Source: Desulfobacula sp. (lineage in GTDB: Bacteria > Desulfobacterota > Desulfobacteria > Desulfobacterales > Desulfobacteraceae). From it: a stretch of 64,000 nucleotides of DNA. The stretch spans positions 62,001 to 126,000 of the forward strand of contig JAMPXP010000009.1 of the NCBI GenBank assembly GCA_023701135.1, given 5' to 3'. Shown piece after piece: positions 2,019-33,370 of the stretch. Both the position numbers and the translations under genes were made by a program. Numbering within the stretch: the stretch's first letter is position 1; the number at the start of each line of letters is the position of its first letter. A model generated the notes under the pieces. It had not been told where the DNA came from, made no database searches, and saw only the letters and a list, made by a program, of their open reading frames with translations.

Positions 2019-4688
2019 TCAGTAATCCTCAAAATCCTCATCTTTATAGGATTCTTTGGAGGAATCATCTGTTAAGGAAATATGGACGCCTTTGTCTTTC
2101 TTTCCGGCCGGGTTTTTGCCCCCCTGCGGTACGGCATGGCTTATGGTTTTTGATATGCGTTTGCGGGGAACGGATGGCCTTCCTTTTTTTGAAGCGCCGC
2201 CCGTGGCTGTTTCCAGTTTGTCCAGGAGGCTCATGGCGTTCTGGAGCTGCTCAGCTTGGGCTGAGAGCTCTTCCGAGGTGGAAGCCATTTCCTCGGACAC
2301 AGCCGAATTCTGCTGGATAACCTGGTCAAGCTGCTGAAGGGCCTGGTTGATCTGGGTTGCTCCGGTGCTCTGTTCCTTTGATGCCGCATTGATCTCTTGA
2401 ACCAGTTCGGCCGTTTTTTTAATATCCGGAACAATTTTATTCAGCATCTGGCCTGCATTTTCAGCCACCTGAACGCTGGAAGACGAGAGGCTGCTGATCT
2501 CGGCTGCGGCAGCCTGGCTCCGCTCGGCCAGTTTCCGGACCGCATCGGCCACAACGGCAAATCCTTTGCCGTGTTCGCCGGCCCGGGCCGCTTCAATGGC
2601 GGCATTCAGGGCCAGCATATTGGTCTGGCGGGCGATTTCTTCAATAATGGAAATCTTTTCGGCAATCTGTTTCATGGCATCCACGGTTTTTGCCACGGCT
2701 TGTCCGCCTTTTGCAGCGTCTTCGGCCGCGTTCATGGAGATCTGCTGGGTCTGCTGGGCATTTTCCGAATTCTGCTGGATGGCGGCGGACATTTCTTCCA
2801 TGGAGGAAGAGGCCTCTTCCGCAGCGGCTGCCTGTTCGGTGGCGCCCTGGGACATTTCCTCTGCCGTGGCGGCCAGCTCCTGGCTCCCGGAGGCCACGTA
2901 ATTGGTGCTGGTCATGATATCGTTGACGATTTCACGGGTATTTTTAAGAATGATGAGGCTGACCATGGCGCCCAGGATAAGGGCCAGGGTGCTTAAAAAG
3001 ATCATGCCGATGATGGTGGTTCTCTCGTCATGTTCGGCTCTCAGCACAGACTGCTCGGTAAACTCTTCTACGGAAAGGGTAAATTCCTCGATCTCCCGGT
3101 TGAGATCATCTTCTTCCTTTTCCACCTTTTCAGCCATCTGCTCGGCCTGGGCCGTTTTCCGGCTGTTCAAAAGTGCAAAAACCTCATTGACATGTTTTTC
3201 AAACTCTGAATGTTCTTTTTCAATCGTTTTTAACGTGTCCAGGGTTTTTTCAAATTCTCTTTTGATTTCCGTGTCTGTCGCTTGTTTTAAGGCATGTTCC
3301 GCAATTTTAATACCGGCCTTAAACGCTTCATCCGCCTCATGGGAAAGCCTTGATGCGTCTTCTTCGGCTTGTTTTAGTCTTTTCAGCATGGCCGGGTTTT
3401 GGGTTGCCAGTTCACCGAAGCGCAATGCGCGCTCAAAAGAGATGCCCTGTTCCAACTGTAATTGGCTGACGGTGGTGATGATTTTGGTCAGGGGAAGATC
3501 CTCTTCAGCAATCTCCTTGATTTCGGTTCCGATGCTGGCCACTTTCAAAATACCGAAAAGATTGCTGCCCAGGATAAAAATCAGGAGGACAGAGGCCAGA
3601 AGAATGATCTGGTTTCTCACCGTCATTTTCCCGAAGATGTTTTTCCGGATGATAAAATACAGACCCGCCGCCACCAGGACCAGGATGACAATTCCTGAAA
3701 TGATCCAGGTGACATAGGAGGAATCCTCTTTATTGTCGGCGCTGTGGTTCGTCTTGTCTGCTGATTTTTCTTTTATTGATTTTTCCGGGGCGTCATGGGA
3801 GGCGCTTCCGGAGGACATCCGGGCCTCATTTTCACCAGCCCCATGGCCGGTTTCTGAACCGGTCTCATGGGCGGTTTCTCCATGGCCGCCCTCGCTCATG
3901 GGATTCACTTCCTTTTCAGGGTTTGCCTCGGCCCTGGCCAGGGCCTGGGCAACGGGAAATTCAGGAAGCCATTCGATTTTTCCCGTTCCTACGTCATAGA
4001 TGGCGCCCACCACTTTGGCTTTGCCGCTTTTGACGATATTTCTCACAGCCGGGCTTTTCAGAAAAAGGTCTTCAACCCCCTGCCAGACATTTTCCACAAT
4101 GGCAAAGGGGATGACGCTGTCTCCTTTGGCTTCGGGATGGGCTGCAACGGCCCGGTGGACGGCAGGGATGATATTGTCCACCAGGGGAGGGATATTGCGT
4201 TCAAGGGCGTGGCCTTCCCCCCTGGCAGCCTTGGCCACGGCAGTGACGGCGCCGCACTGGGTGTGTCCCAGAACCACCAGGACCGGCGTTTTGACATGGG
4301 CCAGCCCGTATTCGATGGACCCGATTTCATCGGTATCGCAGACATTGCCGGCCACACGGATCACAAAGGTATCCATGATTCCGGTATCAAAGATTCTTTC
4401 CACCGGCACCCGGGAATCCGAACAGGTAAGGACCGTGGCCAGGGCGTAATCTCCCTGGTTTTCCCTACCGGCCAGCGTCAACCTGGCCCCATCGCTATGG
4501 GGATGGGCAGGGGTTTGGGATACAAATCTCTGGTTTCCCTGTTTAAGGATTTCAATCACCTGGTCAGGGCCGGGTTTTGCAGACAAGGCAGGGCCAGGAA
4601 AAATAAAGGTCCCTGAAATACAACCGAGGATACTGATGACCAGGGTCCGGTAAAATTTTTGGGCCATTAAGCGCGTCAGGCTTTTCAT
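2019..4688 (-). CDS. Beta-carbonic anhydrase / methyl-accepting chemotaxis receptor fusion
   Basis: This 889-residue protein joins an enzyme to a chemoreceptor. Residues 1-37 look like a signal peptide or signal anchor. Residues 40-250 form a beta-carbonic anhydrase with the zinc ligands and dyad intact: C89, D91 and R93 in TCSDSRVP, and H142 and C145 in GHTQCG. A polar, His/Glu/Ser-rich linker (255-323) leads to a transmembrane helix (325-348). A short loop and a second helix (360-382) follow, then a four-helix-bundle-like periplasmic region (385-558) and a third helix (558-582). The MCP signalling domain (590-830) contains the hairpin tip [21 protein letters not shown] see no HAMP domain between the last helix and the signalling domain. 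The topology puts the enzyme in the periplasm. It is the last gene of the chemotaxis cluster, which supplies cheR, cheB and cheD. The inferred role is taxis to CO2, bicarbonate or pH. Confidence 0.93.
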
Positions 4689-4736: not shown

Positions 4737-6476
4737 CTAAAACAGATCCACATTGTCTCCGAGAGAATCCGGCTCTTTTTTTTCATCTTTCGAGGGATCT
4801 TTGACATCGGGCGGGATCATTTTCGCATCCCCGCCAACCACTTCCGAGTGGATGAGACGTTCGCTTTCCATGGTATAAATGGAAGCCTCGGGTATTTTTT
4901 CAGGGCGGCCCATATCTGGTTCAGGCATGCCGGATAAGATTTTGTCCAGGGCCCTGGTTTGGTTTTCAAGGGTTTCGGCAAATTCCGGCATAAATAAAAG
5001 ATGGGTCTTTGCCCAGGAAAGAAGCTGGGTGAATTTTTCCGCCGGAATCCGGGCTGCTGAAGAATTTTTTCTGAATCGTTCATAATCTTGTGAAATATGC
5101 CGGATGGCCGTATTGAGAAAGGCATGGGACTGATCAAGGCCGATGGTTTTCTGTCCGGTTTTATCTGTTGTCTCGGAAACGGCCTGAATGATCCCTGTTA
5201 CGGTGGCGGTGAATTCATTCAGGGCATGGGAGGTTTTGGTAACCTCCTGGGCCAGTACCTCAAGGGCAAGCCCGATCTCACCCAGAGAGGCGGATTTGAT
5301 GACCGCATTCAGCGCTTTTCGGTGAAGATCCAGGCTGATTTCCTCAACGATCCGGATATGCCGGCTCAGTTTTTTAATGGACTCGGATGCCGTTTTAACG
5401 GCTTCTTCCATCTGTCGATCCAGATCCTCGGCATGGGTAAGAAGGGATGTGAGTTTCATCATGCTTTCAATGGCCCCTGAAAACAGGTCGGCCTCTGAGG
5501 CGGCTTCTTTTTCAATCCCCGTGGCTGAAAGACATTGGGCAAGGGCCTGTGCTTCCCTGTCAATGGTATGAAAGGCGTCCATGATGCGTTCATGGGCATC
5601 CCGGATTTCTGAAACAACCCCGAGAACCTGGGCCTTTTGCACCTTTAAGACTGAAAAGACGGCAGCCTGGACTTCACGGGTATTTTTTTTCGTGGGATGT
5701 ATCTCATCCAAGACCGTTACCACATGCTCCAGTTTTTGCCGGACAATGTCGTGAAATTGAATGGCCATGACGATTTCACTGATTTTGGCGGTAATTGCAG
5801 CAGAATGTGAGCTTGCCTTTTCAAGAGAATGAAACGAGGCTGCAATGAGGTCCTGGATGGTTTTTGTGGATTCCTTAACAGCCTTTCCCGAATCCTCCGT
5901 CAGCCGGACAAAGGTTTCCAGTTTTTGTTCCAGGGTTTTTAAATAGGCTTGCTGGCATTGTTTTTCCTTTTCTGCATCATCATTCAACACGTTTGAAACC
6001 GTCTTGATTCTGTGAGCAAGCTGACCGATCTCCTGGACAAAAACCTCGAACATCTGGTTGGCTTCCCGGGATCTTCTGCTTTCCACGGCAATGTTCAGGG
6101 TGATGACGTTTAACAGCATTGAAAGCCGGTCCGTATGGCCGCAGCCCCTGGAAAGCGATTCAAGATGCATGATTCCGGAAGCCAGATGGGTCAGATGAGC
6201 CTGGATATTTTCCTGAGCCGATCTCAAGGTCTGAATGACGGTATCGGATACGGTGTGAATGTCTTTTAACCGGTTTTTGTCTTCTCCGGCCTGGTCAAGG
6301 TTAAGGGTGTTCAAAACAAGACCGGATAATTGTTCGGATGCTGAAAAGGTTTCATTGAGCTTTTCGCCCAGCATGAGGAAATGAGGATCAACCGATGTCA
6401 GAGAACCGGAAATCGAGTTTGAAACAGCGGTCAGATCCGCATCAAGACCTGCTTTAGGCTTGTTGAAACCGAACAT
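4737..6476 (-). CDS. Cytoplasmic MCP-like protein with CheZ-like phosphatase motif (paralogue A)
   Basis: This 579-residue protein has no transmembrane segment and is largely helical. It contains two degenerate copies of an MCP hairpin-like segment, near residues 118-158 (LLNVITLNIAVESRRSREAN) and 375-420 (RKALNAVIKSASLGE). Neither copy keeps the standard receptor tip. Between them, residues 234-251 (EIVMAIQFHDIVRQKLEHVV) resemble the CheZ active helix, with D243 and Q247 in the D-x-x-x-Q spacing used by CheZ to dephosphorylate CheY-P. The C-terminus carries YTMESERLIH and ends SLGDNVDLF; the protein at 13085-14830 has closely similar peptides. It starts 4 bases after the stop of cheW. I infer a receptor-derived signalling or phosphatase protein, which fits the absence of cheZ, cheC and cheX from the cluster. 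Family databases would probably label it simply as methyl-accepting chemotaxis protein. Confidence 0.8.
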   Translation of the reverse strand: MFGFNKPKAGLDADLTAVSNSISGSLTSVDPHFLMLGEKLNETFSASEQLSGLVLNTLNLDQAGEDKNRLKDIHTVSDTVIQTLRSAQENIQAHLTHLASGIMHLESLSRGCGHTDRLSMLLNVITLNIAVESRRSREANQMFEVFVQEIGQLAHRIKTVSNVLNDDAEKEKQCQQAYLKTLEQKLETFVRLTEDSGKAVKESTKTIQDLIAASFHSLEKASSHSAAITAKISEIVMAIQFHDIVRQKLEHVVTVLDEIHPTKKNTREVQAAVFSVLKVQKAQVLGVVSEIRDAHERIMDAFHTIDREAQALAQCLSATGIEKEAASEADLFSGAIESMMKLTSLLTHAEDLDRQMEEAVKTASESIKKLSRHIRIVEEISLDLHRKALNAVIKSASLGEIGLALEVLAQEVTKTSHALNEFTATVTGIIQAVSETTDKTGQKTIGLDQSHAFLNTAIRHISQDYERFRKNSSAARIPAEKFTQLLSWAKTHLLFMPEFAETLENQTRALDKILSGMPEPDMGRPEKIPEASIYTMESERLIHSEVVGGDAKMIPPDVKDPSKDEKKEPDSLGDNVDLF

Positions 6477-6480
6477 TTTC

Positions 6481-6972
6481 CTATCCCTCGGAAACGGTTT
6501 CAGCGTTTTTCAATGCAGCTTCTTCCGACATCAGGCGATTGATGTCCAGAAGAATGATAAAATCATTGCCTTTTTTGCCGATGCCTTTGATATATCCGGT
6601 ATTGATCCTCATGCCGATCCTCGGGGTCGGTTCGATCAGGTTTTTTTCAAGGGTCAGGACCTCCCGGATGGAATCCACTATGACACCAAGGCTGATGGTT
6701 TCTCCGGAAAGATCCGTTTCAACAATAATGATACAGGTATCCACGGTTTTTTCACCGGCCGGAAGACCGAATTTTCTGCACAACTGGATCACGGGAACCA
6801 CGGCTCCCCTCAAATTGATGGCGCCGAGAAGATAATCCGGCATCCTGGGAACTTTTGTGATTTTTGTAACATCAATGACTTCTTTTACCTTCTGGATATC
6901 AAAGGCATAGGTTTCCTTATCCAGATGAAAGGTAAGAAACTGTACGGTTCCGGATGGGCTCTCTGTAGACAT
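6481..6972 (-). CDS. cheW: Chemotaxis coupling protein CheW (first copy)
   Basis: This 163-residue CheW-domain protein couples receptors to CheA. It has the family features FHLDKETYAFDIQKVKEV, the conserved VPRMPDYLLGAINLRG segment and the C-terminal KGIGKKGNDFIILLDINRL. It is closely related to the second CheW at 9577-10125, which shares the GIGKK(G/D) block and the VDTCIIIV/VDTCIIIL strand, so the two look like in-cluster duplicates. It lies between cheD and MCP-like paralogue A. Two couplers may serve different receptors or allow different array geometries. The start is an ATG preceded by GGAGGT. Confidence 0.96.
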   Translation of the reverse strand: MSTESPSGTVQFLTFHLDKETYAFDIQKVKEVIDVTKITKVPRMPDYLLGAINLRGAVVPVIQLCRKFGLPAGEKTVDTCIIIVETDLSGETISLGVIVDSIREVLTLEKNLIEPTPRIGMRINTGYIKGIGKKGNDFIILLDINRLMSEEAALKNAETVSEG

Positions 6973-7031: not shown

Positions 7032-7625
7032 TTAGAAAAAAGTGACATTCCCGGGTTTTCGGATCTCCTGTTCAATGATTTGTTTCTTTCTTGCTTCCTC
7101 GCGCATCAGCCTGAATATGCTGGTGGGGGAGATTTTTTTTACGGATACGTTTCCGGTGTCTGTAAAAAAAAAGACCTTTCTGGGCCGTTCGCCTCCCAGA
7201 TCCCGGGCCATGATGGGAATCCCCTCTGTTTCCAGGAACCGGACCACAAAATCGGAAATCTGCCGGCCAACGGCGTTTTTAATATCAATATCCGGCAGGA
7301 CATGGGCTCCGCCGAAAATCTTGGCCATGAGGTTGTGACGGTTGGCCCCTTTTTTCATCATGGCGTTGATCAGAATCTCCATGGCATTGATGCTGTAACG
7401 GGTCTGCTGGTCAAACACCATCGAATTTGTTTTGCCCGGTAATATGATGTGGTTCATTCCCGCGATATTATTGTGCTTGTCATGGAGGCAGACGGCCACA
7501 CAGGAGCCCAGGATGGTGCTGATGACAATCCCCTGGCTGCTGGTATAGAAGTCCCCGATATGAATCCGGACCTCTTTTTTTTTCAAGGCCCCTAATTCTC
7601 TGCTATGGAAATTCCGGATGGTCAT
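7032..7625 (-). CDS. cheD: Chemoreceptor glutamine deamidase CheD
   Basis: This 197-residue CheD deamidates specific glutamines on receptors and, in systems with CheC, binds CheC. The catalytic Cys is C42 in TILGSCVAV and the catalytic His is H59 in GMNHIILP. The following FGGAHVLPDIDIKNAVGRQ segment is typical of the family. The N-terminal extension (about 20 residues) and the C-terminal basic tail are longer than in the shortest CheD proteins. It starts 9 bases after the cheB stop with AAGGAAA upstream. No CheC is encoded here, so CheD probably works directly on receptors such as the carbonic anhydrase-MCP fusion. Confidence 0.96.
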   Translation of the reverse strand: MTIRNFHSRELGALKKKEVRIHIGDFYTSSQGIVISTILGSCVAVCLHDKHNNIAGMNHIILPGKTNSMVFDQQTRYSINAMEILINAMMKKGANRHNLMAKIFGGAHVLPDIDIKNAVGRQISDFVVRFLETEGIPIMARDLGGERPRKVFFFTDTGNVSVKKISPTSIFRLMREEARKKQIIEQEIRKPGNVTFF

Positions 7626-7634
7626 AGGGTTTCC

Positions 7635-8702
7635 TTAGGATTCATTACACATGTCAAGCACGGCCTGGTTGATCCGCTCAAGGGGAAGGATCTTATCCAC
7701 GCACCCCAGCTTGATGGCTTCTTTGGGCATTCCAAATACCACGCTGGAGGCCTCGTCCTGGGCTATGGTGGAAGCACCGGATTCTTTCATTTCCAGCATG
7801 CCTTTTGCCCCGTCATCTCCCATACCCGTCATGATGACGCCGACTGCATTTTTCCCTGCATAGCGCGCCGCAGACCTGAAAAGGACATCTACGGAGGGCC
7901 GGTGCCGTGATACCAGGGGGCCGTCTTTGATTTCCGCATAATACCGGGCCCCGCTTCGTTTGATGAGCAGGTGTTTGTTGCCCGGCGCGATGAGGGCCTG
8001 GCCCCTTAAGATGGAGTCCCCGTCCGCGGCTTCCTTTACAGAAACCCGGCAGATGGAATTCAGCCGCGTGGCAAAGGCTTTGGTGAAATTTTCAGGCATG
8101 TGCTGAACAATGACGATGCCGGGGACATCTCTTGGAAATTTTTCAAGAAATATCCTCAACGCTTCCGTCCCGCCTGTGGAAGCACCCACGGCAATGATTT
8201 TTTCAGTGGTTTTCAGCATGGCCTTTGTGGGTTTTTCAATTACGGCATCGGCTGTCAGCTTGGGAGCGACTTTCCTGATTTCAATCACTTTTTTCAGCCT
8301 GGACATGGCCGCGGCCTTGACAATATCGCATATCCGGATTCTGGATTCCTCAAAGAACCGCTTTGTCCCTACCGTGGGTTTGGTAATGATGTCCACGGCT
8401 CCGGAATCCAGGGCGCGGAGGGCGGTGGCCGACCGGTCTGCAGTCAGGGTGGAGCAGATGACAACCGGGATGGGGTGCTGGGACATGAGCTTCTGCAAAA
8501 ACGTGATGCCGTCCATCCGGGGCATTTCAATATCCAGAGTGATCACATCGGGTTTTTGAATTCTCATTTTCTGGGCTGCTGCAAAAGGATCCTGGGCCGT
8601 ACCCATGACCTCGATGCCGGGATCGGAAGAAAGGATATCCACAAGGGTCTGACGAACCAGAGCGGAATCATCTACAATCAGGACTTTAATTCTATCGGGC
8701 AT
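7635..8702 (-). CDS. cheB: Protein-glutamate methylesterase CheB
   Basis: This 355-residue CheB has an N-terminal receiver (phosphoacceptor D57 in [13 protein letters not shown]) joined to a C-terminal methylesterase. The catalytic elements are visible: Ser in [10 protein letters not shown], His in [11 protein letters not shown] and Asp in [10 protein letters not shown]. It removes methyl groups from receptors, and deamidates some, when activated by CheA phosphorylation. It lies 17 bases downstream of cheR and just upstream of cheD, so all receptor-modifying enzymes are contiguous. Confidence 0.97.
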
Positions 8703-8719: not shown

Positions 8720-9577
8720 TCAGGTTTTTTGATATACGGTTGACGCCGTGGGCACCACCGGCAGCAAATGGTGTTCAAGAAGTTCAGAATGGCCCATGAA
8801 GAGAAATCCGCCGGGTTTCAATTGCCCGCATATCCGTTGCATAAGGTTGCGGGTGGTGGGGGCATCAAAATAAATAATAACGTTCCGGCAGAAAATCACA
8901 TCAAATTTTTTTAAAAAGGTGAAATCTTCCATGAGGTTCATCCTTTTGAAATGAATCCTGTCCCTTAAATCCGATACAATCCGCACCATGTTCTTTGACC
9001 TGTCCTTTGAGCGCAACAGATATTTTTTCCGGAAATTGAGAGGGACCGGTTCGATGGTATCATGGTCATACACGCCCTTTACGGCAATATTTAAAACCTT
9101 TGAAGAAATATCCGTGGCCGTAATGGTAAAATCAAAGCCCTGTTTTGTTAAAAAATTCGCCATCACCATGGCAAGGGTATAGGGTTCGTCCCCCCTGGAA
9201 CAGGCGGAACTCCAGGCATGGATATGTTTTGTGGCCTTGGCTGTTGTTCTCATTAATTCAGGGAGCGCAATTTCCGTAAGATAGGTGAAATGGTTGGGTT
9301 CCCGGAAAAAATCGGTTTTATTGGTGGTAATGGCATCGATCAAGTGGGACAGTTCCTCCTGTTGCCCTTCAGCGCTGAAGAAATATTCCGTATAATCAAA
9401 ATAGGAATTCATATCCAGTTGGTTCAGCCGTTTTCTGAGTCTTGATTCCAGCAGCCCTTTTTTCTGTGGCGGCAGCTTGATTCCGACGGTTGAATGGATA
9501 TATCCGGCCAGCCGTCGGAAATCCGTTTCAGACAGGTGGGGTGCGGATTGAAGGATCGTAGCGGGGGCGCCGGCCAT
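8720..9577 (-). CDS. cheR: Chemotaxis protein methyltransferase CheR
   Basis: This 285-residue SAM-dependent methyltransferase methylates glutamates on chemoreceptors. An N-terminal helical domain (about 15-85) precedes the Rossmann domain with the [18 protein letters not shown] motif, the SSKVLNIA segment and the [14 protein letters not shown] motif. There is no C-terminal TPR extension. Its ATG overlaps the stop codon of the upstream cheW by one base (TAATG), implying translational coupling. No receptor in the window ends in the NWETF-type tether, so recruitment must differ from E. coli. Confidence 0.97.
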
Positions 9578-10125
9578 TACATCTCCTCTTTGGTCCCGGA
9601 TTCAGGGGGGACAAATGTTTCTTCATCGGCCGGGGGAGCTTCCTGTTCAACCCCGGTGACCGATTCTATTTCCTCTGTCGAGAACAGCTTGTCCAGATTC
9701 AGGATGATCGTGAATTTTTTATCTTTTTTCCCGATGCCCTTGATAAATCCGGGATTGATCCCGACCCCCATCCTGGGAGCGGGTTCAACCTGGTCCGGCT
9801 CCAGGGTCAGCACCTCCTGGACCGAATCGGCGAGAATTCCCATGAGAAGCGATTCCTTGCCCATGATAAAATCCAGGATGATGATGCAGGTGTCCACGGT
9901 GTTCTGAGTTTCCGGCAATTCAAATTTCAGCTTCAGATCTATGACCGGGACAACGGTATCCCTTAAATTGATGATGCCGCGCATGAAAACCGGCATGCCG
10001 GGCACTTTGGTAATCTCGGTATAGTCCAATACCTCCCGGACCTGGGTAATCCCCAGGGCATAGACTTCCTTGTCCAGTTTAAACGTCAGATACTGGCTCG
10101 TCTGGGTAATTCCTTTTATGGTCAT
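9577..10125 (-). CDS. cheW: Chemotaxis coupling protein CheW (second copy)
   Basis: This 182-residue CheW-domain protein is similar to the product of 6481-6972 throughout the domain, from YLTFKLDKEVYALGI to KGIGKKDKKFTIILNLDKL. It differs by a 30-residue acidic, proline-rich C-terminal tail (EQEAPPADEETFVPPES). The tail may be disordered. It starts 23 bases after the cheA stop with AAAGGAGA upstream, and its stop overlaps the cheR start. Confidence 0.96.
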   Translation of the reverse strand: MTIKGITQTSQYLTFKLDKEVYALGITQVREVLDYTEITKVPGMPVFMRGIINLRDTVVPVIDLKLKFELPETQNTVDTCIIILDFIMGKESLLMGILADSVQEVLTLEPDQVEPAPRMGVGINPGFIKGIGKKDKKFTIILNLDKLFSTEEIESVTGVEQEAPPADEETFVPPESGTKEEM

Positions 10126-10148: not shown

Positions 10149-12227
10149 TTATGCTGCGATAATTTTGTTGACATCGACAATCAGGGCCACGGTTCCATCT
10201 CCCAGGATGGTGGCGCCGGAAATATCGCCCACGTCCCTGAAGGCCGACCCGAGATTCTTGATCACGGTCTGGTGGCCGCCGATGACATTGTCCACCACAA
10301 ATCCGGTCCTTTTTCCGTTGGCTTCCATGATGACCACCTGCTCCAGCGCCGGTGCATCGGTCCGGATATCGTATTCATCCCTGAGCTTGACATAGGGAAC
10401 GATTTCCCCCCTGACATTGAGAATCTGCCTTTTCCGGTCATGGGAGGCCTCTTCCTTAGGCAGCTCCACGCACTCCTCCACCGAGGCCAGGGGAAGGACG
10501 AAATACCCTTCTCCGACGGTCACCAGAAGACCGTCGATGATGGCCAGGGTCAAGGGCAGCTTAAGGGTGATGGAGGTGCCTTTTGATTTTTGGGATTCAA
10601 TTTCAATGCTGCCTCTTAATTCATCAATGCTTTTTTTGACCACATCCATGCCCACCCCCCGCCCGGAAACATCGGTAACGGTTTCGGCCGTTGAAAAGCC
10701 GGGGGCAAAGATGATATTTAAAATTTCTTTTTCCGTTAATTCGGTTTCGGAAGAGATGATCCCTTTTTTTTCCGCCTTGTTTCTCAAGGCTACGGGGTCC
10801 AAGCCTTTGCCGTCATCGGAAATCCGGATCAGCACATATGCACCTGAATGCCTGGCAGACAGGTGAATGGTTCCGGTTTCCGGCTTTCCGGCCTCTTTCC
10901 GGGCCTCTGGCATTTCAATACCATGGTCGATACTGTTGCGGATAATATGGACAAGGGGGTCTTTGAGCCTCTCAATCACGGTTTTATCCAGTTCTGTTTC
11001 CCCACCCGACGTGGTCAGCTCAATTTTTTTGCCCAAATCATCGGAAAGATCCCGGACCAGGCGTTTGAAATTTGAAAATGTGGTTCCGATCTGGAGCATG
11101 CGGATGCTCATGGCATTGTCTCTTAAACCGGAAGTCAGCATCTCCACCTCCTCGGCAATGGACACAAGGTCTGCTTCGCCCTGGATGGAAGCCTTCTGGC
11201 TCAACCTTGCCTGCACGGTGACAAGCTCACCCACAAGGTCTATCAGATGGTCAAGCTTTTCAGCCGGGACACGAACGCTTTTTTCAGAGATCTGTTCTTT
11301 TTTTTGGGTCACCTTTTTCTGGATGCGTTCCTGTTCAACCAGAGCGGATTTAACGGCGGACAAACTGGTTTTGTTTTCTTTCACGAGGATCTGCCCGATT
11401 TTTGAGGGGGCCTGTTTATCAAGGGCCCGATGAAGGTCTTCCTTGGAGATATCTCCCCGGCTGACCAGGATTTCCCCCAATTTATCAACTGTCATATCTT
11501 CCACATTGGCTTCGTGGTCGAAAATTTCTTTAATGGAAATCTGACTGTCGTCTTCAACAAAGATGAACACATCTTTGACCGCATTCAGGGTCTTGCGCGT
11601 GGTCAGGACAATGTCCCAGAAAATATGGCATTCTTCGGGATTCAGGGTTTCGAGGGGAGGGAGTTGGCTGGTGTAAGCAGTAACGGCGCACTCCCCCATC
11701 TCTCTTAATTCGTCGAGCAGCAAAAGGGGATTGGTCCCGTTGGCAAAAATATCACGGGAAGGTTTAAATCTTATCCTGAAGGTGACCTCGGGAGAGTCCG
11801 GTTCAGGCTCATGAGCAGCCTTGCCGGGAAGTATTTCCTCATCGGGTTCCGTATCCGGCATCAGTTTTTTAAGTTCGGCAATGAGGGCTTCCCCTTTTTC
11901 CCGGTCGATTTGACCCTCTCCATTGGAACCGTCCAGAAGATCACGGATATGATCCCTGGCCGATAATGTCAGGTCGATGAGTTCCTTTGTAACCACAATG
12001 GCCCCTTCTCGGACCTTGTCAAATACGGTTTCAACATTGTGGGTAAAATTTGCAATATCATCGAAACCGAACATGGCGCCGGAGCCTTTGATGGTATGCA
12101 TGGCCCTGAAAACCCTTCCAATGAGTTCCATATCATCCGGTGATTCTTCCAGCTCCAACAGGGAGGTTTCAAGTTCAGCCAGCAATTCATAGGCTTCTTC
12201 CTTAAATACATTTTTTTGAGTATCCAT
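10149..12227 (-). CDS. cheA: Chemotaxis histidine kinase CheA
   Basis: This 692-residue CheA has all the expected modules. The P1 domain carries the phosphorylated H44 in AMHTIKGSGAMFGF. Residues 145-232 are a domain starting FRIRFKPSRDIFANGTNPLL in the P2 position, and it does not look like E. coli P2. Residues 240-305 (DKLGEILVSRGDISKEDL, repeated as SKIGQILVKENKTSL) resemble the MshEN/type II secretion ATPase N-terminal repeat. Then come the dimerisation domain (about 315-385), the ATPase with HIIRNSIDHGIE and DDGKGLD, and a C-terminal CheW-like domain. I chose the ATG at 12227 because GAGGAG lies 7 bases upstream; an in-frame extension to 12338 has no ribosome site and an unrelated sequence. 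A 132-bp gap separates it from cheY. Confidence 0.97.
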   Translation of the reverse strand: MDTQKNVFKEEAYELLAELETSLLELEESPDDMELIGRVFRAMHTIKGSGAMFGFDDIANFTHNVETVFDKVREGAIVVTKELIDLTLSARDHIRDLLDGSNGEGQIDREKGEALIAELKKLMPDTEPDEEILPGKAAHEPEPDSPEVTFRIRFKPSRDIFANGTNPLLLLDELREMGECAVTAYTSQLPPLETLNPEECHIFWDIVLTTRKTLNAVKDVFIFVEDDSQISIKEIFDHEANVEDMTVDKLGEILVSRGDISKEDLHRALDKQAPSKIGQILVKENKTSLSAVKSALVEQERIQKKVTQKKEQISEKSVRVPAEKLDHLIDLVGELVTVQARLSQKASIQGEADLVSIAEEVEMLTSGLRDNAMSIRMLQIGTTFSNFKRLVRDLSDDLGKKIELTTSGGETELDKTVIERLKDPLVHIIRNSIDHGIEMPEARKEAGKPETGTIHLSARHSGAYVLIRISDDGKGLDPVALRNKAEKKGIISSETELTEKEILNIIFAPGFSTAETVTDVSGRGVGMDVVKKSIDELRGSIEIESQKSKGTSITLKLPLTLAIIDGLLVTVGEGYFVLPLASVEECVELPKEEASHDRKRQILNVRGEIVPYVKLRDEYDIRTDAPALEQVVIMEANGKRTGFVVDNVIGGHQTVIKNLGSAFRDVGDISGATILGDGTVALIVDVNKIIAA

Positions 12228-12359
12228 GACACGCTCCTCAATAATGAAAACTGTAATGTTTCTGTAATATGGTCTAATCCATACACGGCACCTTTGGCAA
12301 GATCGCAAAGGAAGGAAAGTGCGGGATCGGGACGGCAATGCCGGATGCCATGCGAATGA

Positions 12360-12725
12360 TTATTTCAACACTTTTTTAATAACGGCCAGGAGCTGTTCCG
12401 GTTTGAACGGCTTTACGATCCAGCCTGTGGCACCGGCGGCTTTTCCCTGCATTTTCTTTTCATCCTGGGATTCCGTCGTCAAAAGGATGATGGGGATAAA
12501 TTTGTATTTGGGCAGGGCTCTTATTTCCCTGATCATTTGAATCCCGTCCATATGGGGCATGTTCAGATCGGTGATGACCATATCCACATCTTTTGCTTTT
12601 GCTTTTTCCAGCCCGTCTTTGCCGTCAACCGCTTCCAGTACGTCATAACCGGCTCCCTTGAGGGTGAAGCTAACCATCTGGCGCATGCTGGCGGAATCAT
12701 CTGCAGTGAGAATCAGTTTTCCCAT
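12360..12725 (-). CDS. cheY: Chemotaxis response regulator CheY
   Basis: This 121-residue protein is a stand-alone receiver domain. It has the acid pair in ADDSASMRQ, the phosphoacceptor Asp in MVITDLNMPHMDG, the conserved Thr in ILLTTES and the Lys in WIVKPFKPEQL. This is the CheY type that carries the signal from CheA to the flagellar switch or another effector. The ATG at 12725 has AGGAGA 8 bases upstream. It starts 2 bases after the end of the STAS gene. Confidence 0.95.
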   Translation of the reverse strand: MGKLILTADDSASMRQMVSFTLKGAGYDVLEAVDGKDGLEKAKAKDVDMVITDLNMPHMDGIQMIREIRALPKYKFIPIILLTTESQDEKKMQGKAAGATGWIVKPFKPEQLLAVIKKVLK

Positions 12726-12727
12726 GA

Positions 12728-13069
12728 TCACGCTTCTCCTTTCCATAAGCATGTTTTGCACGGATTTTCCGAGCACCCGAAATTATTGTCATACCCGAGC
12801 TCTGTTAATAACGAGGCCACGGAATCCATATCCTTGTCGGTTATTGAAAAATCTTTGCCGCTTTTTTCAAAGGACATATTGGCCGAACAAAAAAGCTGGA
12901 CAATGGACATGTCCATTTCATGAACATCCCTAAGGTCCATGGTTACCCTGCTGCAGGAGGATAGTGAATTCACAAGCGCAGCCTTGACTTCATTTGCCTG
13001 GGCAATGCCCATGGGCCCTGTAAATTTTATGCTGCATTCATTGCCTTTTGTGTTTAGATTATATTCCAT
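12728..13069 (-). CDS. STAS-domain protein with C-terminal Cys cluster
   Basis: This 113-residue protein has a STAS fold pattern (VTMDLRDVHEMDMSIVQLFCSAN, residues 42-64) like anti-anti-sigma factors and the STAS proteins found in some chemotaxis operons. The usual phosphorylatable Ser/Thr of the D-S/T-x-G motif is not clear: the corresponding stretch reads MDMSIVQ. The C-terminus has three cysteines in C-x5-C-x2-C arrangement (GCSENPCKTCLW), unusual for this family. AGGAGA precedes the start. It sits between MCP-like paralogue B and cheY with only 2-15 bases on either side, so it is certainly part of the operon. Its partner is unknown. Confidence 0.82.
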   Translation of the reverse strand: MEYNLNTKGNECSIKFTGPMGIAQANEVKAALVNSLSSCSRVTMDLRDVHEMDMSIVQLFCSANMSFEKSGKDFSITDKDMDSVASLLTELGYDNNFGCSENPCKTCLWKGEA

Positions 13070-13084
13070 ATATTTTCTCCTGGA

Positions 13085-14830
13085 TTAAAACAAATCAATG
13101 TTGTCGCCAAGGGTTTCATTTTCTTCAGATACGGCCGCCAAGGGTTTTTCCTGAACCCTGCCGGATTGTTTTTTATGGATATTGCGTTCCTTTTCCATGG
13201 TATAGCGGTTTAAAAAATACGGATCATCCTCAAGGGACCCGGAAAAGGCTTTTTTGTAAGGTTCCAGACCGGGTTTGATTTTTTTTAACCGGACAAGGAT
13301 GGCTCCGAGGGTTTCAGCCATGGATTTAAAAAAAGATATTTCATTATGGGCAAGGCGGGTCAGAGTTTTCAGATGCTCCCCTTTTTTACGGATATTTCCC
13401 ATATGGAGATTGACGGTTTCAAAGGTTTTGGAAATATCAGCCAGGGAATCCGAAATGGTCTGGGACACATTGCCGCTGTTCCCTTTTTTTAATTCCGATG
13501 AATTTGAATAAAGCTTTTCAGAAGAGGTATGGACGGCATTTAAAATCCGGTCCACATGGGCCGTAAATTCGTCGATTTTATCTGTCATGGCTCTCATCTC
13601 ACGGGCAAGAACCTTTAAGGTGGCGCCGTTTTCCATGAGCTTATCTGCGGAGATAATGGCATTGAGGGATTTAATCTGGGATTCTTTGCTGATGGTGTGA
13701 ACCTGGCTGATATAACCGGAAAGGCGACGGCTGCTCTTAAGGGTCTGGGCCGCAATTTCTTCAACATCGGATATCATGGCGTCTCCCTGAATTTTCAATG
13801 AACTGATGCAGTTCAGAGAATCCGTGATCCCCGAGGTCGGGTTTTTGTCTGAAGAGTTTTTCTTTTCATCAAACAGGTTGCCGGAAAATTGATCAATCTC
13901 ATCGAGAATGGATTCAAATGTCTTGGAATTATTATGAAACACCGATTCAAGGTCTTCTATGATGTGCTGAAGCTGGGATTCCTGCACCTTAAGAATCTTA
14001 CAGGCAAGCCCCAACCGTTCCTCATGGGTATACGCCCTGTTGCCGAGGGGGGTTTCCGTGCTGCAAAGCACAAGGACATCATCAAGGCCTTGGTGGATAT
14101 GTTCAATCCGCTGACGGATATTGTCATGCATCTGGACGGCCACAATGATATTGCCGATTTCTGAATGGATGGACAGGGAGGATCGGTTTGATTTTTCAAT
14201 GGCGGCTGTTGAAAGGGCAATCAGTCCCCGCGTCTCGTCGATGGATCCCTGAAGATGGGTTTTGGACGCTGCAACAAGCTTTTCTGTTTGGTCCAGGCGT
14301 TTTGATATCAAGTCCTTTGTAGAAGCAAAGGCTGATCGGGCAGATTCCGAATCCTGTTTGATTCCCGTGGAAATTTCATGGATCTGGTCAGCGAGATGTT
14401 TGATTTCACGGGCCAGGATTGAAAAATTCTGATCCGTCAGCCGGGTTCTTGAGGTTTCAACCACAAAATTAAAGGCCACTGCATTCAAATATTTTGAAAT
14501 ATGGCTTATATTTGCCTGGAATTCGGCAAGTTGATTTAAGCCGTTGATGATTTCGGTTACGGAGTCAATGCTTTTATTGATGGCGTCATGGTTCTGCCCA
14601 AGGGATTGAATCATGGAATCGGCCAGTTTTTGAGTGTTGGAAAGGATATCATGATCCTCCCCCAACAGCAGCGAGGCGGATTGGCCCGTCTGACCCACAA
14701 GATCTGAGACTTCTTGGGACAGGGTCTGCAGGAATGCGCCAAGACCTATGAAATCCTTTTCGGTTTTTTCAGGTATGACGGCCAGTGTATTCATCATCTC
14801 AAGTATGGCATCCGCCGGTATTAAACTCAT
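13085..14830 (-). CDS. Cytoplasmic MCP-like protein with CheZ-like phosphatase motif (paralogue B)
   Basis: This 581-residue helical protein has no membrane segments and is a diverged paralogue of the product of 4737-6476. It has the same layout: a degenerate MCP hairpin-like stretch at 113-150 (YLNAVAFNFVVETSRTR), a CheZ-like helix at 227-245 (NIIVAVQMHDNIRQRIEHI, with D236 and Q240), and a second degenerate hairpin at 380-425 (IKSLNAIISADKLMENG). The C-terminus has YTMEKERNIH followed by the terminal TLGDNIDLF. It is the first gene of the chemotaxis operon, downstream of a sigma-70 promoter. The conserved terminal peptide, like the CheY-binding tail of CheZ, could be a docking site. The phosphatase function is inferred from motif spacing only. 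Confidence 0.8.
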   Translation of the reverse strand: MSLIPADAILEMMNTLAVIPEKTEKDFIGLGAFLQTLSQEVSDLVGQTGQSASLLLGEDHDILSNTQKLADSMIQSLGQNHDAINKSIDSVTEIINGLNQLAEFQANISHISKYLNAVAFNFVVETSRTRLTDQNFSILAREIKHLADQIHEISTGIKQDSESARSAFASTKDLISKRLDQTEKLVAASKTHLQGSIDETRGLIALSTAAIEKSNRSSLSIHSEIGNIIVAVQMHDNIRQRIEHIHQGLDDVLVLCSTETPLGNRAYTHEERLGLACKILKVQESQLQHIIEDLESVFHNNSKTFESILDEIDQFSGNLFDEKKNSSDKNPTSGITDSLNCISSLKIQGDAMISDVEEIAAQTLKSSRRLSGYISQVHTISKESQIKSLNAIISADKLMENGATLKVLAREMRAMTDKIDEFTAHVDRILNAVHTSSEKLYSNSSELKKGNSGNVSQTISDSLADISKTFETVNLHMGNIRKKGEHLKTLTRLAHNEISFFKSMAETLGAILVRLKKIKPGLEPYKKAFSGSLEDDPYFLNRYTMEKERNIHKKQSGRVQEKPLAAVSEENETLGDNIDLF

Positions 14831-29638: not shown

Positions 29639-30343
29639 ATGACGGATAAAAAAAAGAAACTACCACCTGCCTGTGCATCCTGTGAACTGGATATTCCGGA
29701 GAAGCTTTGTTTTTCGGATCAGGGTAAGGCGCACAAGGGATGTCCCACCTTGACGCGAAAAGAGGTGCTGGCGGAAGCCAACCAGGCCTATGGGCCGGAG
29801 GATGTCAGAAAATTTGCGTATAATGCCTCTTTGCAGGAGGCGGAATGCTATGCCAACCGGGACCGGCAGCCCTATGTCATGCAGCCCTGCAAGACCCGGA
29901 TGGTCGAAACCTGCGAATTCGCCTTGAAAATGGGGTACAAGCGCATCGGTCTTGCCTTTTGCCTGGGGCTTTCAAAGGAAGCCAAGACTGTTGAAGAGAT
30001 TTTGAAAGCCTATGGGTTTGAAGTGGCCTCTGTCTGCTGCAAGGCCGGGAACACCTCCAAGGAACTCATCGGCATCTCTGATGATGAAAAAATTTTTAAG
30101 GGAACCGACGAGGCCATGTGCAATCCGATTTTCCAGGCCAAAGCCCTGAACCATGAACAGACGGATTTTAATATCCTTTTAGGCCTGTGCGTGGGGCATG
30201 ATACCCTGTTTTTAAAATTTACCGATATCCCGACAACGGTTCTGGCGGTAAAGGACCGGGTAACCGGCCATAACCCCCTGGCAGCGATTTACCAGGCCGA
30301 TTCCTATTATAAAAAGATCCGGAACCCGAATATCAAGCCCTGA
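29639..30343 (+). CDS. DUF1847 metal-binding protein
   Basis: This 234-residue protein is Cys-rich. C12/C15 (ACASCELDI), C24 and C35 lie in the first 40 residues, and others follow in MQPCKTRMVETCEF, GLAFCLG, VCCKAGN, AMCNP and GLCVGHD. This pattern is typical of DUF1847, annotated as metal-binding proteins in strict anaerobes. Function is not established. The ATG is preceded by GGGAGGAAA. It sits between the selenoprotein and the DUF2868 gene on the same strand. Confidence 0.88.
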   Translation: MTDKKKKLPPACASCELDIPEKLCFSDQGKAHKGCPTLTRKEVLAEANQAYGPEDVRKFAYNASLQEAECYANRDRQPYVMQPCKTRMVETCEFALKMGYKRIGLAFCLGLSKEAKTVEEILKAYGFEVASVCCKAGNTSKELIGISDDEKIFKGTDEAMCNPIFQAKALNHEQTDFNILLGLCVGHDTLFLKFTDIPTTVLAVKDRVTGHNPLAAIYQADSYYKKIRNPNIKP

Positions 30344-30365
30344 TCTTTTAAAACGAAACCAAATC

Positions 30366-31961
30366 ATGGCCATCATATTAAAAGACATCATTGATCTGGA
30401 TTATCTGGTGAGCCGGGATGAGGCCCTTAAATCGGAAAAAGAGATCCGGCTGAGGGATGACCGGGACCGGAGGATCTACCGGCAATGCAGGGAGACCTGC
30501 CGGACCCCTGAGGCGGTGTTGCGCGCATGGCTTGAAGCCAGAAGACAGGAGATTTACGGGGAAGACGGGCAAAAAGCAGTGGTTCTTCTGCCCGGAACCG
30601 TCTTCTCTTCCCTTTATTCGTTTATGGTGACAGCCCTGATTTTTCTGGGTGTTTTTTCTGGTCTTTCCCTGGCCTGTTCATTTCTTGCCTACCACGGCAC
30701 AAGACCCGTCAATGCGGCGCTTTTTGCTTTTTTGTTCATTGTCCTCCAGGGGATACTCATCCTTGTCACGGTTTTTTTTCTTTTCCGCCGGCGCATGAAG
30801 ATCAGGTCCGAAAAAGGGTTCAAAGATTCAATGGTGCATACCGTGATGTCTTTTCTGTTTTTTTACGGTCTGCCCAGGATGCTGAAAAAAACAAATTCAC
30901 GATTATTTCGAAAAGGGCGGGATTCCCTGGAATATACCACCGCCCTCTTCCGGATGAAAAACCGGGAATTTCAGGCGCTTTTTTTCTGGCCGGTTTTTAT
31001 CCTGACCTCGGTGTTTGCCTTTTGTTTTACGCTGGGGGCCCTTGGCGGAACTTTTTTCAGGGTCATTGTCAGCGATATGGCCTTTGGCTGGCAGTCCACC
31101 CTCATGGCCACCAGCCAAAGCGTCTACGGCCTGGTCTCCCGGATAGCCCTCCCCTGGTCCTGGTTCATGCCGGAAAGCATTGCCCACCCGAGTCTGGCCC
31201 AGATTGAAGGGTCCAGGATCATCCTCAAGGACGGAATTGCGGTTCTGGCCACCCGGGATCTGGTTTCCTGGTGGCCCTTTCTCTGCCTGGGCATTCTCTT
31301 TTATGCCGTCCTTCCCCGGGCGGCTCTGCTGGTTACCGGACTCCTGGCCCAGTATCATGTTCTTCGCCGCTTTGACCCGGACCGCCCGGTTTTCAGGCAA
31401 TTGCTGATCCGGATGCAGTCACGGAATCTGGATATAGACAGTCCAAAAGACTTTCCGGAAATAAGAGGCCCGGCCCCGATTCACAGAGAAGAGCTGCATG
31501 TCGGGCAGAATCCGGCTCTGGCCGGCGATTCCCCCCAGGCCGCCGGCATCCCTTTTCAAAATGCCCTAATCCTTGCCCCCCAGACGGTGTATTCCGATGC
31601 AGCCATGGAAAAGATTGAAGCCCACATCCGCGCCCATCTTTTTCTGGATGCCCAAGAAAGGATCAAAGCCGGCTTTGATCCGGACCAGGACCGGGAGATC
31701 TTCACCCGGATCAAAAACAGCCCCGCAGACCAGGTTGTCCTTGTGCATGAGGTCTGGCAGCCGCCCATCCGGGGGCTTCTGTATTATATCCGGTCGCTTA
31801 AATCCGTGATGCCGGAAAAAATGCATTTGTGGATCCTGCTCACCGGGGATGCCGGACCGGAAAACCTGGGTGTGGAAAAAACCGATGCTAATTTTGAGAC
31901 CTGGAAAAGGGCTGTCGTCACGCTTGAAGATCCGGGCATCACCGTCACGAGGGTGGTATAA
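30366..31961 (+). CDS. DUF2868 membrane protein
   Basis: This 531-residue protein starts MAIILKDIIDLDYLVSRDE and has several membrane helices in its first 320 residues: pairs at about 78-140, two near 200-230 and one near 300-325. A soluble C-terminal half follows with a nucleotide-fold-like strand (NALILAPQTVYSD). DUF2868 proteins occur as partners of DUF3482 GTPases. Here the stop codon overlaps the ATG of that GTPase gene by one base, supporting a two-protein membrane complex. The biological role is unknown. Confidence 0.85.
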   Translation: MAIILKDIIDLDYLVSRDEALKSEKEIRLRDDRDRRIYRQCRETCRTPEAVLRAWLEARRQEIYGEDGQKAVVLLPGTVFSSLYSFMVTALIFLGVFSGLSLACSFLAYHGTRPVNAALFAFLFIVLQGILILVTVFFLFRRRMKIRSEKGFKDSMVHTVMSFLFFYGLPRMLKKTNSRLFRKGRDSLEYTTALFRMKNREFQALFFWPVFILTSVFAFCFTLGALGGTFFRVIVSDMAFGWQSTLMATSQSVYGLVSRIALPWSWFMPESIAHPSLAQIEGSRIILKDGIAVLATRDLVSWWPFLCLGILFYAVLPRAALLVTGLLAQYHVLRRFDPDRPVFRQLLIRMQSRNLDIDSPKDFPEIRGPAPIHREELHVGQNPALAGDSPQAAGIPFQNALILAPQTVYSDAAMEKIEAHIRAHLFLDAQERIKAGFDPDQDREIFTRIKNSPADQVVLVHEVWQPPIRGLLYYIRSLKSVMPEKMHLWILLTGDAGPENLGVEKTDANFETWKRAVVTLEDPGITVTRVV

Positions 31962-33370
31962 TGGATCAGTTTCCCCAACCCGTCCCTGAATTCGCCGTCC
32001 TGGGCCATCCCAATGAAGGAAAATCATCGGTGGTCTCCACCCTGACCGAGGATGACCGGATCAGGGTCAGCCGGATACCGGGGGAAACCACGGAATCAAC
32101 CGCTTACACGGTCAAAATTGACGGAAAAGATATCATCCGGTTTGTGGATACGCCGGGATTCCAGGTGCCCAGGCAGACCCTGGCCTGGTTCAGGAAATTT
32201 GAGGGGAATCCTGAACAGATCGTGGAGACCTTTATCCAGACCTTTAAAAATGATCCCTTTTATGCCGATGACTGTGAACTCTTAAAACCCGTGGCCCGGG
32301 GCGCCGGCATTATTTATGTGGTGGACGGGTCCCGCCCGGTCCGGGATGACGATCTGGCGGAAATGGAGATCTTAAGGCTCACCGGCCGCCCCAGGATGGC
32401 CGTCATCAATTCCAAGACCGATGAAAAAGATTATACGGCAGACTGGAGAAACGAATTCCGCAAACATTTCAATGCTATCCGCCTCTTTAATTCCAATACG
32501 GCGGATTTCACGGAACGCATTAAAATGCTGGAAAGCCTGAAAGCCATTGACCAGGAATGGGAAGGGCAGCTCTCCGATGTCATTTCAGCCTTTCATGCGG
32601 ATTACCGGAAAAGAAGGGACCTGGCCTGTACCGCCATATTCCGGGCCCTGGAGCAGAGCCTGTCTTTTTCACTTTCCGAACCCGTCACCGGGGATGAAGA
32701 CCTTGAGGCTCTCAAGGAGCGGCTCAATGAAAAATACCAGGCCCGGATCAAAAAATTTGAGGATGATCTGTTTAAGAAAATCCGGTCTCTCTTCAAACAT
32801 CATGTGTTTGACCATAGGTTGCCGGAGTATTCCATTCTCAACCATGACCTGTTTTCAAAACAGACCTGGGAGCTTCTGGGCCTAACAACGGAACAGCTTG
32901 CGGCAGCCGGGGCCGTTGTCGGCGGAACCTTCGGGGCCATTATTGATACGGCCGCTGCCGGCCATACCTTTGGGCTTTTTACCGCCGTCGGGGGAATATT
33001 GGGGGCCGGGTCAGCCCTGTTCAGCGGGAAAAAGATGGCGACGAACACCCCCCACGGCATTCGCCTGGGCGGCGACCGGCTTTTGCTGGGGCCCCATAAA
33101 AATCCCCAGTTTCTCTATATCCTGCTGGACCGGGCCCTGATATATTATTCCCATATCATCCACCGGCCCCACGGAAAAAGAGATATGGGAGAAGGAAGAG
33201 AGAACCATTTAAAAAAGGGCTTTTCAACAGAATTTACAAGCGGCCAGAGGACCGCCTGCTTAAAATTTTTCAAGGCGGTCGCAGGCCGTTCCCTAATCCG
33301 GGATAAAAAGGCGATATCGGAATTTGAGGATCTCCTGAAAGAACTGTTAGAGGACCTTTCAGGGAAATAA
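31961..33370 (+). CDS. DUF3482-containing GTPase
   Basis: This 469-residue protein begins with a TrmE/Era-type G domain: G1 GHPNEGKSS, a G2 Thr in GETTEST, G3 DTPGFQ and G4-like NSKTD. A helical DUF3482 region follows from about residue 210, with a glycine-rich hydrophobic hairpin (AAAGAVVGGTFGAIIDTAAAGHTFG) near residue 315. Such hairpins often insert in membranes. It is translationally coupled to the upstream DUF2868 gene. The pair may work at the membrane, but no process is established. Confidence 0.87.
   Translation: MDQFPQPVPEFAVLGHPNEGKSSVVSTLTEDDRIRVSRIPGETTESTAYTVKIDGKDIIRFVDTPGFQVPRQTLAWFRKFEGNPEQIVETFIQTFKNDPFYADDCELLKPVARGAGIIYVVDGSRPVRDDDLAEMEILRLTGRPRMAVINSKTDEKDYTADWRNEFRKHFNAIRLFNSNTADFTERIKMLESLKAIDQEWEGQLSDVISAFHADYRKRRDLACTAIFRALEQSLSFSLSEPVTGDEDLEALKERLNEKYQARIKKFEDDLFKKIRSLFKHHVFDHRLPEYSILNHDLFSKQTWELLGLTTEQLAAAGAVVGGTFGAIIDTAAAGHTFGLFTAVGGILGAGSALFSGKKMATNTPHGIRLGGDRLLLGPHKNPQFLYILLDRALIYYSHIIHRPHGKRDMGEGRENHLKKGFSTEFTSGQRTACLKFFKAVAGRSLIRDKKAISEFEDLLKELLEDLSGK

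Follow-up and report, generated by a model that had tools for sequence, protein, structure and literature searches.

In mammalian CO2 taste, carbonic anhydrase 4 on sour cells provides an extracellular carbonic anhydrase (CA) tethered near the sensor of its product, enzyme and sensor being separate proteins on one cell. CA-like ectodomains are also found in the animal receptor phosphatases RPTP-gamma and RPTP-zeta (available parts of PMC7541084 and PMC11215419), and that of RPTP-gamma, which lacks the histidines regarded as catalytically essential, is described as a putative bicarbonate sensor (PMC7541084). Among bacterial chemoreceptors, Helicobacter pylori TlpA, a dCache-domain protein (excerpt of PMC8406319), has been reported as a receptor for arginine and bicarbonate, bicarbonate versus pH being left undecided in the portion available of PMC5245789. 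Here we describe a protein of 889 amino acids (aa) encoded in a window of 64,000 nucleotides from Desulfobacula sp. (assembly GCA_023701135.1, contig JAMPXP010000009.1, positions 62,001 to 126,000), in which a beta-class CA is joined to a chemoreceptor carrying the signalling domain of a methyl-accepting chemotaxis protein (MCP). To our knowledge, no CA is associated with TlpA, and the known exported beta-CAs of the type found here are stand-alone enzymes. In the open-access literature, the titles and abstract openings among the matches listed described no CA-chemoreceptor fusion, and no dedicated bacterial CO2 or bicarbonate receptor with an enzyme was among these matches; in PMC7691447, as far as the excerpt extends, a CA gene appears only as a regulon member.

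The CA-MCP protein is encoded by a single intact open reading frame (ORF) with an ATG start (Table 1). Pfam placed Pro_CA (PF00484) at residues 85-238 (E 2.7e-35; 122.4 bits against a cut-off of 25.7) and MCPsignal (PF00015) at residues 651-790 (E 1.2e-34; 120.1 bits against a cut-off of 34.6), bearing out the original prediction that both domains reside in one protein. The NCBIfam model NF011765, of exported beta-CA type, matched below its cut-off, and no family in that collection spanned both the CA and MCP domains. The first hydropathy peak (residues 16-34) corresponds to a signal peptide, by which the CA domain would be exported as had been proposed, and those at 329-347, 361-379 and 563-581 indicate three membrane helices after it. 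An AlphaFold model of the whole protein, based on 32 aligned sequences, had a mean predicted local distance difference test (pLDDT) score of 74.3 and a predicted template modelling score (pTM) of 0.38. The CA domain was mostly modelled at a pLDDT of about 90 or higher, and the linker fell below 50 over residues 268-322, followed by a helix at 322-348 and then by four long helices (357-427, 434-469, 473-508 and 512-591). In these helices, the block means were 90-97 for residues 401-540 and fell to 76-85 closer to the membrane. Hydropathy and model together agree with the polar linker, three membrane helices and helical periplasmic region anticipated earlier and, as read from the helices, both the CA and the four-helix bundle would be periplasmic. 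HAMP domains are common, although not universal, in MCP chemoreceptors; none was found in the Pfam scan of the window protein, as first noted, but their absence is not a general trait, since the homologue L003 has one.

By Foldseek, the CA domain has the fold of a beta-CA (PDB 2a5v chains, TM-scores of 0.78-0.85 of target). It shares this fold and the Cys-x-Asp-x-Arg and His-x-x-Cys motifs with exported beta-CAs (PF00484; nearest solved structures 2a5v and 1ym3) and, unlike those stand-alone members, forms the ectodomain of a chemoreceptor. All zinc ligands (Cys89, His142 and Cys145) and the Asp91-Arg93 dyad are present, in agreement with the original prediction. The periplasmic four-helix bundle plus its membrane helices is termed here the receptor body. 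As in Tar-like and 4HB_MCP receptors (PF02203 TarH and PF12729; Tar, Vc1313 and PcaY_PP), the bundle lies between two membrane helices and is followed by an MCP hairpin; the window protein differs from these in its sub-cut-off sequence match, the lack of HAMP, an additional N-terminal membrane helix and the enzyme in front. Modelled alone with 43 sequences, the bundle reached a pLDDT of 94.5 and resembled the ligand domain of Vc1313 (TM-score up to 0.84 of target) and Tar (up to 0.75), the listed Tar and Vc1313 chains giving TM-scores of 0.71-0.84 at Foldseek E values of only 0.01-0.04. The window body scored 17.9 bits against TarH, under the Pfam cut-off of 25.2, and at E <=0.01 TarH was matched by 31 and 4HB_MCP_1 by 27 of 43 members of the body family. 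Solved structures related to the body by sequence were also sought and the two matches, both weak and unrelated, were discarded. Pro399 is present in 55/55 bodies, and Glu419 (98%), Gln414 (91%), Arg420 (84%) and His493 (84%), which are common to CA-linked and unlinked bodies, are candidate sensing-site residues. Three tandem body-type receptors with very long middle regions (892-1427 aa) were observed at L183 397-10769 (G176).

The window protein is one of several such fusions. A second CA-MCP in the same genome (L111 2734-5628, G000:C8; 965 aa) has a longer periplasmic helical part and is clustered with the genes for CheA and further MCPs. Further beta-CA-MCP fusions occur in G020 (858 aa), G014 (a draft ORF starting inside the CA domain, of which only the frames are described), G281 (ORF ending at the contig edge), G296 (L010; 886 aa) and G111 (L003; HAMP-containing, 954 aa before the contig ends), and at L007 the contig stops after the CA and linker, placing any receptor part beyond the reach of the data. 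An assembly error joining two genes, an artefact named in the original prediction, is ruled out by these independent homologous fusions and the second one in the window genome. The beta-CA is fused to the same receptor body in the window protein, L003, L010 and L112; in the second window-genome fusion and those of G281 and G014 the periplasmic part is longer and of another kind, and thus the beta-CA has been joined to more than one receptor body. A weak HBM match was found in L113. Across the family, the window CA had matches in 37 of 86 genomes, some of them weak or to other beta-CAs, and six fused places were located in five of the 86; the class sample of 291 genomes gave the same six places with frames of at least 820 aa and, among the matches listed, no other frame above 424 aa. 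The check on relatives proposed in the original prediction gave a mixed outcome, a beta-CA-MCP fusion being present in G014 and G020 of the genus and the congener G002 having the receptor body without CA; with only three of 26 genus genomes positive (G000, G014 and G020), the fusion was rejected as a trait of the whole genus. At L006, a broken beta-CA-like stretch in several frames (about 8000-8400) lies directly before a body-type receptor.

The same position can be occupied by an alpha-CA. Alpha- and beta-CAs have unrelated folds and catalyze the same main reaction, CO2 hydration. Using the whole window protein as query, L005 from the Desulfobacteraceae SURF_7 was found by matches to body and MCP, and its N-terminus proved to be an alpha-CA (PF00194, residues 37-248, E 8e-43). 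A search with the body only gave a second such protein, L184 (G325; residues 44-256, E 3e-45), and in both the alpha-CA stands where the beta-CA does, ahead of a polar linker and a membrane helix. In L008 (Magnetococcales) and L068 (Gammaproteobacteria), both found with the whole-protein query and then used as seeds for body-only searches, a separate alpha-CA gene is located directly upstream of the body receptor; that of L068 (3541-5106) encodes two tandem alpha-CA domains and, with the body-type MCP, belongs to a che cluster. Additions with an adjacent alpha-CA gene came from Magnetococcales (L199, L201, L202, L206, L207 and L227, the last with two alpha-CA genes by the receptor) and Gammaproteobacteria (L244, L246 and L247), while the search that gave L184 also revealed a beta-CA gene with a signal-peptide-like start after a body receptor and CheW (L192, G160). 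The adjacent alpha-CAs show an N-terminal hydrophobic peak resembling a signal peptide; in L206 and L247 the peak is close to a start further into the frame. Long-frame alpha-CAs of Gammaproteobacteria (L310-L314) were considered as receptors and rejected, an MCP domain being present in 0/5; two of them, L310 2678-5272 and L311 685-2610, have PKD-type domains and carry the alpha-CA C-terminally.

The zinc ligands are retained in the linked CAs of both classes that were examined. Both beta-CA metal motifs occur in 6/7 fused and 40/40 solo rows, and the seventh fused row, G014, which starts inside the CA domain, has the HKQC motif in its ORF. The three zinc histidines are at their motifs in 15/15 domains of 14 linked alpha-CA proteins, and the motifs that we take to represent His64, His94/His96, His119 and Thr199 are all present in them, with Gln instead of the second-shell Glu two residues before His119 in L279. 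Of the unlinked alpha-CAs singled out by a motif check, L121 has lost the His94/His96 motif and L116, L195 and L197 vary only around it. On these residues, the fused CA would be expected to be active in CO2 hydration.

In total, 55 distinct body homologues scored at least 80 bits and 18 were CA-linked (four with beta-CA fused, two with alpha-CA fused, 11 with alpha-CA adjacent and one with beta-CA adjacent), the 18 including the window protein and the two search seeds L008 and L068. In a control set of 83 MCP ORFs without the receptor body (66 loci, flanks up to 8 kb), a CA ORF lay within 3 kb of two, both next to CA-MCP fusions. Separate-gene linkage was seen in 12/49 versus 2/83 cases (Fisher p 1e-4), or versus 0/81 with the two fusion-adjacent controls excluded (Fisher p 3e-6), both values being optimistic because the homologues are related and two linked cases served as seeds. 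In Magnetococcales, 21 alpha-CA matches were found in 13 of 48 genomes, and all eight with an MCP in the available stretch were next to one of body type. In Gammaproteobacteria, where 77 of 321 genomes contain an alpha-CA, 30 loci were examined, one being linked (G360) and 29 having no MCP within about 1.5 kb; three further linked cases from this group came from the seeded body-only searches (G609, G628 and G714). Within the order Desulfobacterales, alpha-CA was found in six of 242 genomes, one of them being the fused L005. The CA-MCP observation is confirmed and more extensive than first noted.

The window CA-MCP is probably an enzyme-coupled chemoreceptor for CO2 or bicarbonate. The features read from sequence that lead to this view are the domain make-up, the intact active sites and the repeated CA coupling by two folds, fused and unfused, whereas catalysis, a small-molecule link from CA to bundle, the identity of the sensed product and the swimming direction are inferences beyond the sequence. 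Through an anchor helix of its own and a flexible leash, the exported CA would stay attached to the membrane, and it would let CO2, bicarbonate and protons equilibrate rapidly in the periplasm beside the receptor. Either bicarbonate or protons would be the product sensed by the bundle, which membrane helices 2 and 3 flank, and the state of the bundle would be relayed by helix 3 straight to the MCP hairpin and on to CheA/CheW and the motor, with adaptation through CheR/CheB/CheD. As in mammalian taste, a CA would thus be tethered near the sensor of its product, here within one polypeptide or through adjoining genes. Swimming bacteria compare signals over seconds, and the half-time of uncatalysed CO2 hydration is about 19 s (for a rate constant of 0.037 per second), so that a bicarbonate or proton receptor would need a CA for a fast reading of CO2. 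The earlier suggestion that the enzyme makes local pH or bicarbonate changes, or detects CO2 by its own turnover, has to be refined, since the bicarbonate excess from one enzyme is estimated at only about 0.03-0.07 uM (1000 turnovers per second, 2-5 nm). A steady local build-up of this size was rejected as negligible against ambient bicarbonate, which is millimolar, although it is of the order of the free proton concentration around neutral pH if buffering is disregarded. Such a tiny excess favours rapid equilibration over a local product rise, and the periplasm would be equilibrated by an array of such receptors rather than each having a private product cloud.

That two unrelated CA folds interchange, in fused or separate form, suggests that selection acts on catalysis and not on a specific CA fold. 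Likewise, the disordered leash, the extra membrane helix, the separate-gene CAs and the two folds point to a diffusible reaction product as the link between CA and bundle, as opposed to mechanical coupling. The replacement of beta-CA by alpha-CA on the same body and the adjoining separate CA genes provide strong indirect support for a role of the enzyme in sensing. More broadly, and tentatively, these proteins may form a receptor family with catalysis as the detection step, in which at least three bacterial lineages would sense CO2 via a tethered or co-expressed CA of either fold and one four-helix receptor.

Several observations weigh against the window protein being such a sensor. No CA was present in the stretch available for 37 of the 55 body homologues, 23 of which had only about 1.4-1.5 kb of upstream sequence and four less than 900 bases; in G002 and G208 there was none despite more than 4 kb upstream, so a CA is not obligatory. 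In the class sample, beta-CAs of this type mostly occur in short frames, as solo proteins. The linked cases are not independent, and most control ORFs belong to lineages that differ from those of the adjacent cases (7/83 are from Magnetococcales loci). A sequence signature for CA-linked bodies was sought and discarded, only three weak columns differing from unlinked bodies. On a body tree (IQ-TREE, 55 rows, 237 columns; weakly resolved, with 16 of 52 inner branches starred), the CA labels needed 15 changes versus a shuffled mean of 17.1, with 15 or fewer in 11 of 200 shuffles; a single origin of CA linkage, given this number of changes and the many weak branches, is unsupported. Two clades of the tree are supported. 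One comprises L005 with its fused alpha-CA, L006 with the broken beta-CA-like stretch and L192 with a beta-CA in the vicinity, and with these differing enzymes the CA was probably switched within this clade. The other contains L010 (beta fused) together with L004 and L186, which have no CA and keep the hydrophobic start, polar stretch and first membrane helix, an architecture that looks like loss of the enzyme.

Export offers a different explanation, in which the CA rides on the receptor only to reach the membrane or cell pole and handles CO2/bicarbonate or pH with no part in sensing. This would suit the exported solo beta-CAs of this type that are common in the class sample, some of which (L085) end in a His-rich tail resembling the first part of the fusion linker, as well as the 37 body receptors for which no CA was seen. 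It is unlikely, as separate CA genes require no receptor for export, control MCPs are without CA neighbours except by CA-MCP fusions, and 8/8 Magnetococcales alpha-CAs with an MCP neighbour adjoin the same receptor type. Many beta-CAs are allosteric dimers or tetramers, which could fit a CA domain that is itself the ligand sensor, bicarbonate or CO2 binding altering its shape or pairing with mechanical relay as proposed for RPTP-gamma, an animal receptor whose CA-like ectodomain is put forward as sensing bicarbonate (PMC7541084). The window protein shares with RPTP-gamma and RPTP-zeta a CA-type ectodomain on a signalling receptor and proposed bicarbonate sensing, but differs from RPTP-gamma in its intact metal-ligand motifs, varying CA folds, bacterial host and chemotaxis output. 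In addition to the intact active sites, the roughly 55 predicted disordered residues and separate membrane helix between CA and bundle, the 12 cases with the CA encoded by a separate gene and the presence of the alpha fold, usually monomeric, in the same place make direct ligand sensing by the CA domain improbable. Some beta-CA relatives hydrolyse carbonyl sulphide or carbon disulphide, and sulphur chemistry would suit the sediment host; a receptor sensing the product of such another small substrate is nevertheless very improbable, as alpha- and beta-class CAs occupy the slot, both with the usual CO2-hydration motifs. A chance fusion of genes that serves no selected function, which the patchy distribution (5/86 family genomes) could favour, is scarcely credible in view of the repeated coupling, fused and adjacent, by two folds in three lineages with metal ligands intact. 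The window protein has a further parallel in TlpA, also a bacterial chemoreceptor with a reported bicarbonate response (excerpt of PMC5245789), although TlpA differs in having a dCache domain.

The CA-MCP gene is the last of a minus-strand run with a complement of chemotaxis genes upstream (CheA, CheW, CheB, CheR, CheD and CheY), in line with the che operon originally described, and the window genome gave three flagellin matches. Che clusters also house the homologous receptors L010, L005 and L068, and clusters of the same composition contain L004 and L186, which lack a CA. The two MCP-like proteins of the window (4737-6476 and 13085-14830), neither with a recognised input domain, are of similar length, have C-termini that are alike (LGDNVDLF and LGDNIDLF) and flank the che run just before the CA-MCP gene. 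Elsewhere in the window are three adjoining genes for DUF1847, DUF2868 and DUF3482 plus a GTPase domain (29639-33367) and an ammonium transporter gene (39131-40423).

Table 1. Features of the CA-MCP protein and of the neighbouring chemotaxis genes, in window positions.
Feature	Position	Strand	Basis or remark
CA-MCP gene	2019..4688	-	889 aa + stop
Signal peptide, residues 1-37, hydrophobic stretch 16-34	4578..4688	-	hydropathy; peptide end estimated
Beta-carbonic anhydrase domain, residues 38-262	3903..4577	-	Pro_CA, 2a5v fold match, pLDDT
CSDSR: zinc ligand Cys89 and Asp91-Arg93 dyad	4410..4424	-	motif check
HTQC: zinc ligands His142 and Cys145	4254..4265	-	motif check
Linker, polar, His-containing, predicted disordered, residues 263-322	3723..3902	-	pLDDT <50 over 268-322; composition
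Membrane helix 1, residues ~323-348	3645..3722	-	hydropathy and model
Membrane helix 2, residues ~357-383	3540..3620	-	hydropathy and model
Four-helix bundle, predicted periplasmic, residues ~384-558	3015..3539	-	models, conserved columns
Membrane helix 3, residues ~560-583	2940..3011	-	hydropathy and model
MCP signalling hairpin, residues ~595-829, no HAMP ahead	2202..2906	-	Pfam and model
C-terminal DFEDY	2022..2036	-	sequence; similar to CheR-tethering pentapeptides
MCP-like protein without recognised input domain, next upstream gene	4737..6476	-	MCPsignal below cut-off
CheW	6481..6972	-	Pfam
CheD	7032..7625	-	Pfam
CheB	7635..8702	-	Pfam
CheR	8720..9577	-	Pfam
CheW, second	9577..10125	-	Pfam
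CheA, longest ORF; true start maybe further in	10149..12338	-	Pfam
CheY-like response regulator, longest ORF	12360..12776	-	Pfam
STAS-domain protein	12728..13069	-	Pfam
Second MCP-like protein	13085..14830	-	MCPsignal

The CA-MCP thus appears to be a chemoreceptor with an active-looking enzyme within its sensory equipment, and the coupling of CA and receptor suggests a bacterial CO2 or bicarbonate sensor working via an enzyme. The occurrence of two unrelated CA folds in one slot makes the role of catalysis directly testable. If true, this would provide a molecular handle on how bacteria track CO2 or bicarbonate and would mean that evolution employs an enzyme as a sensor component.

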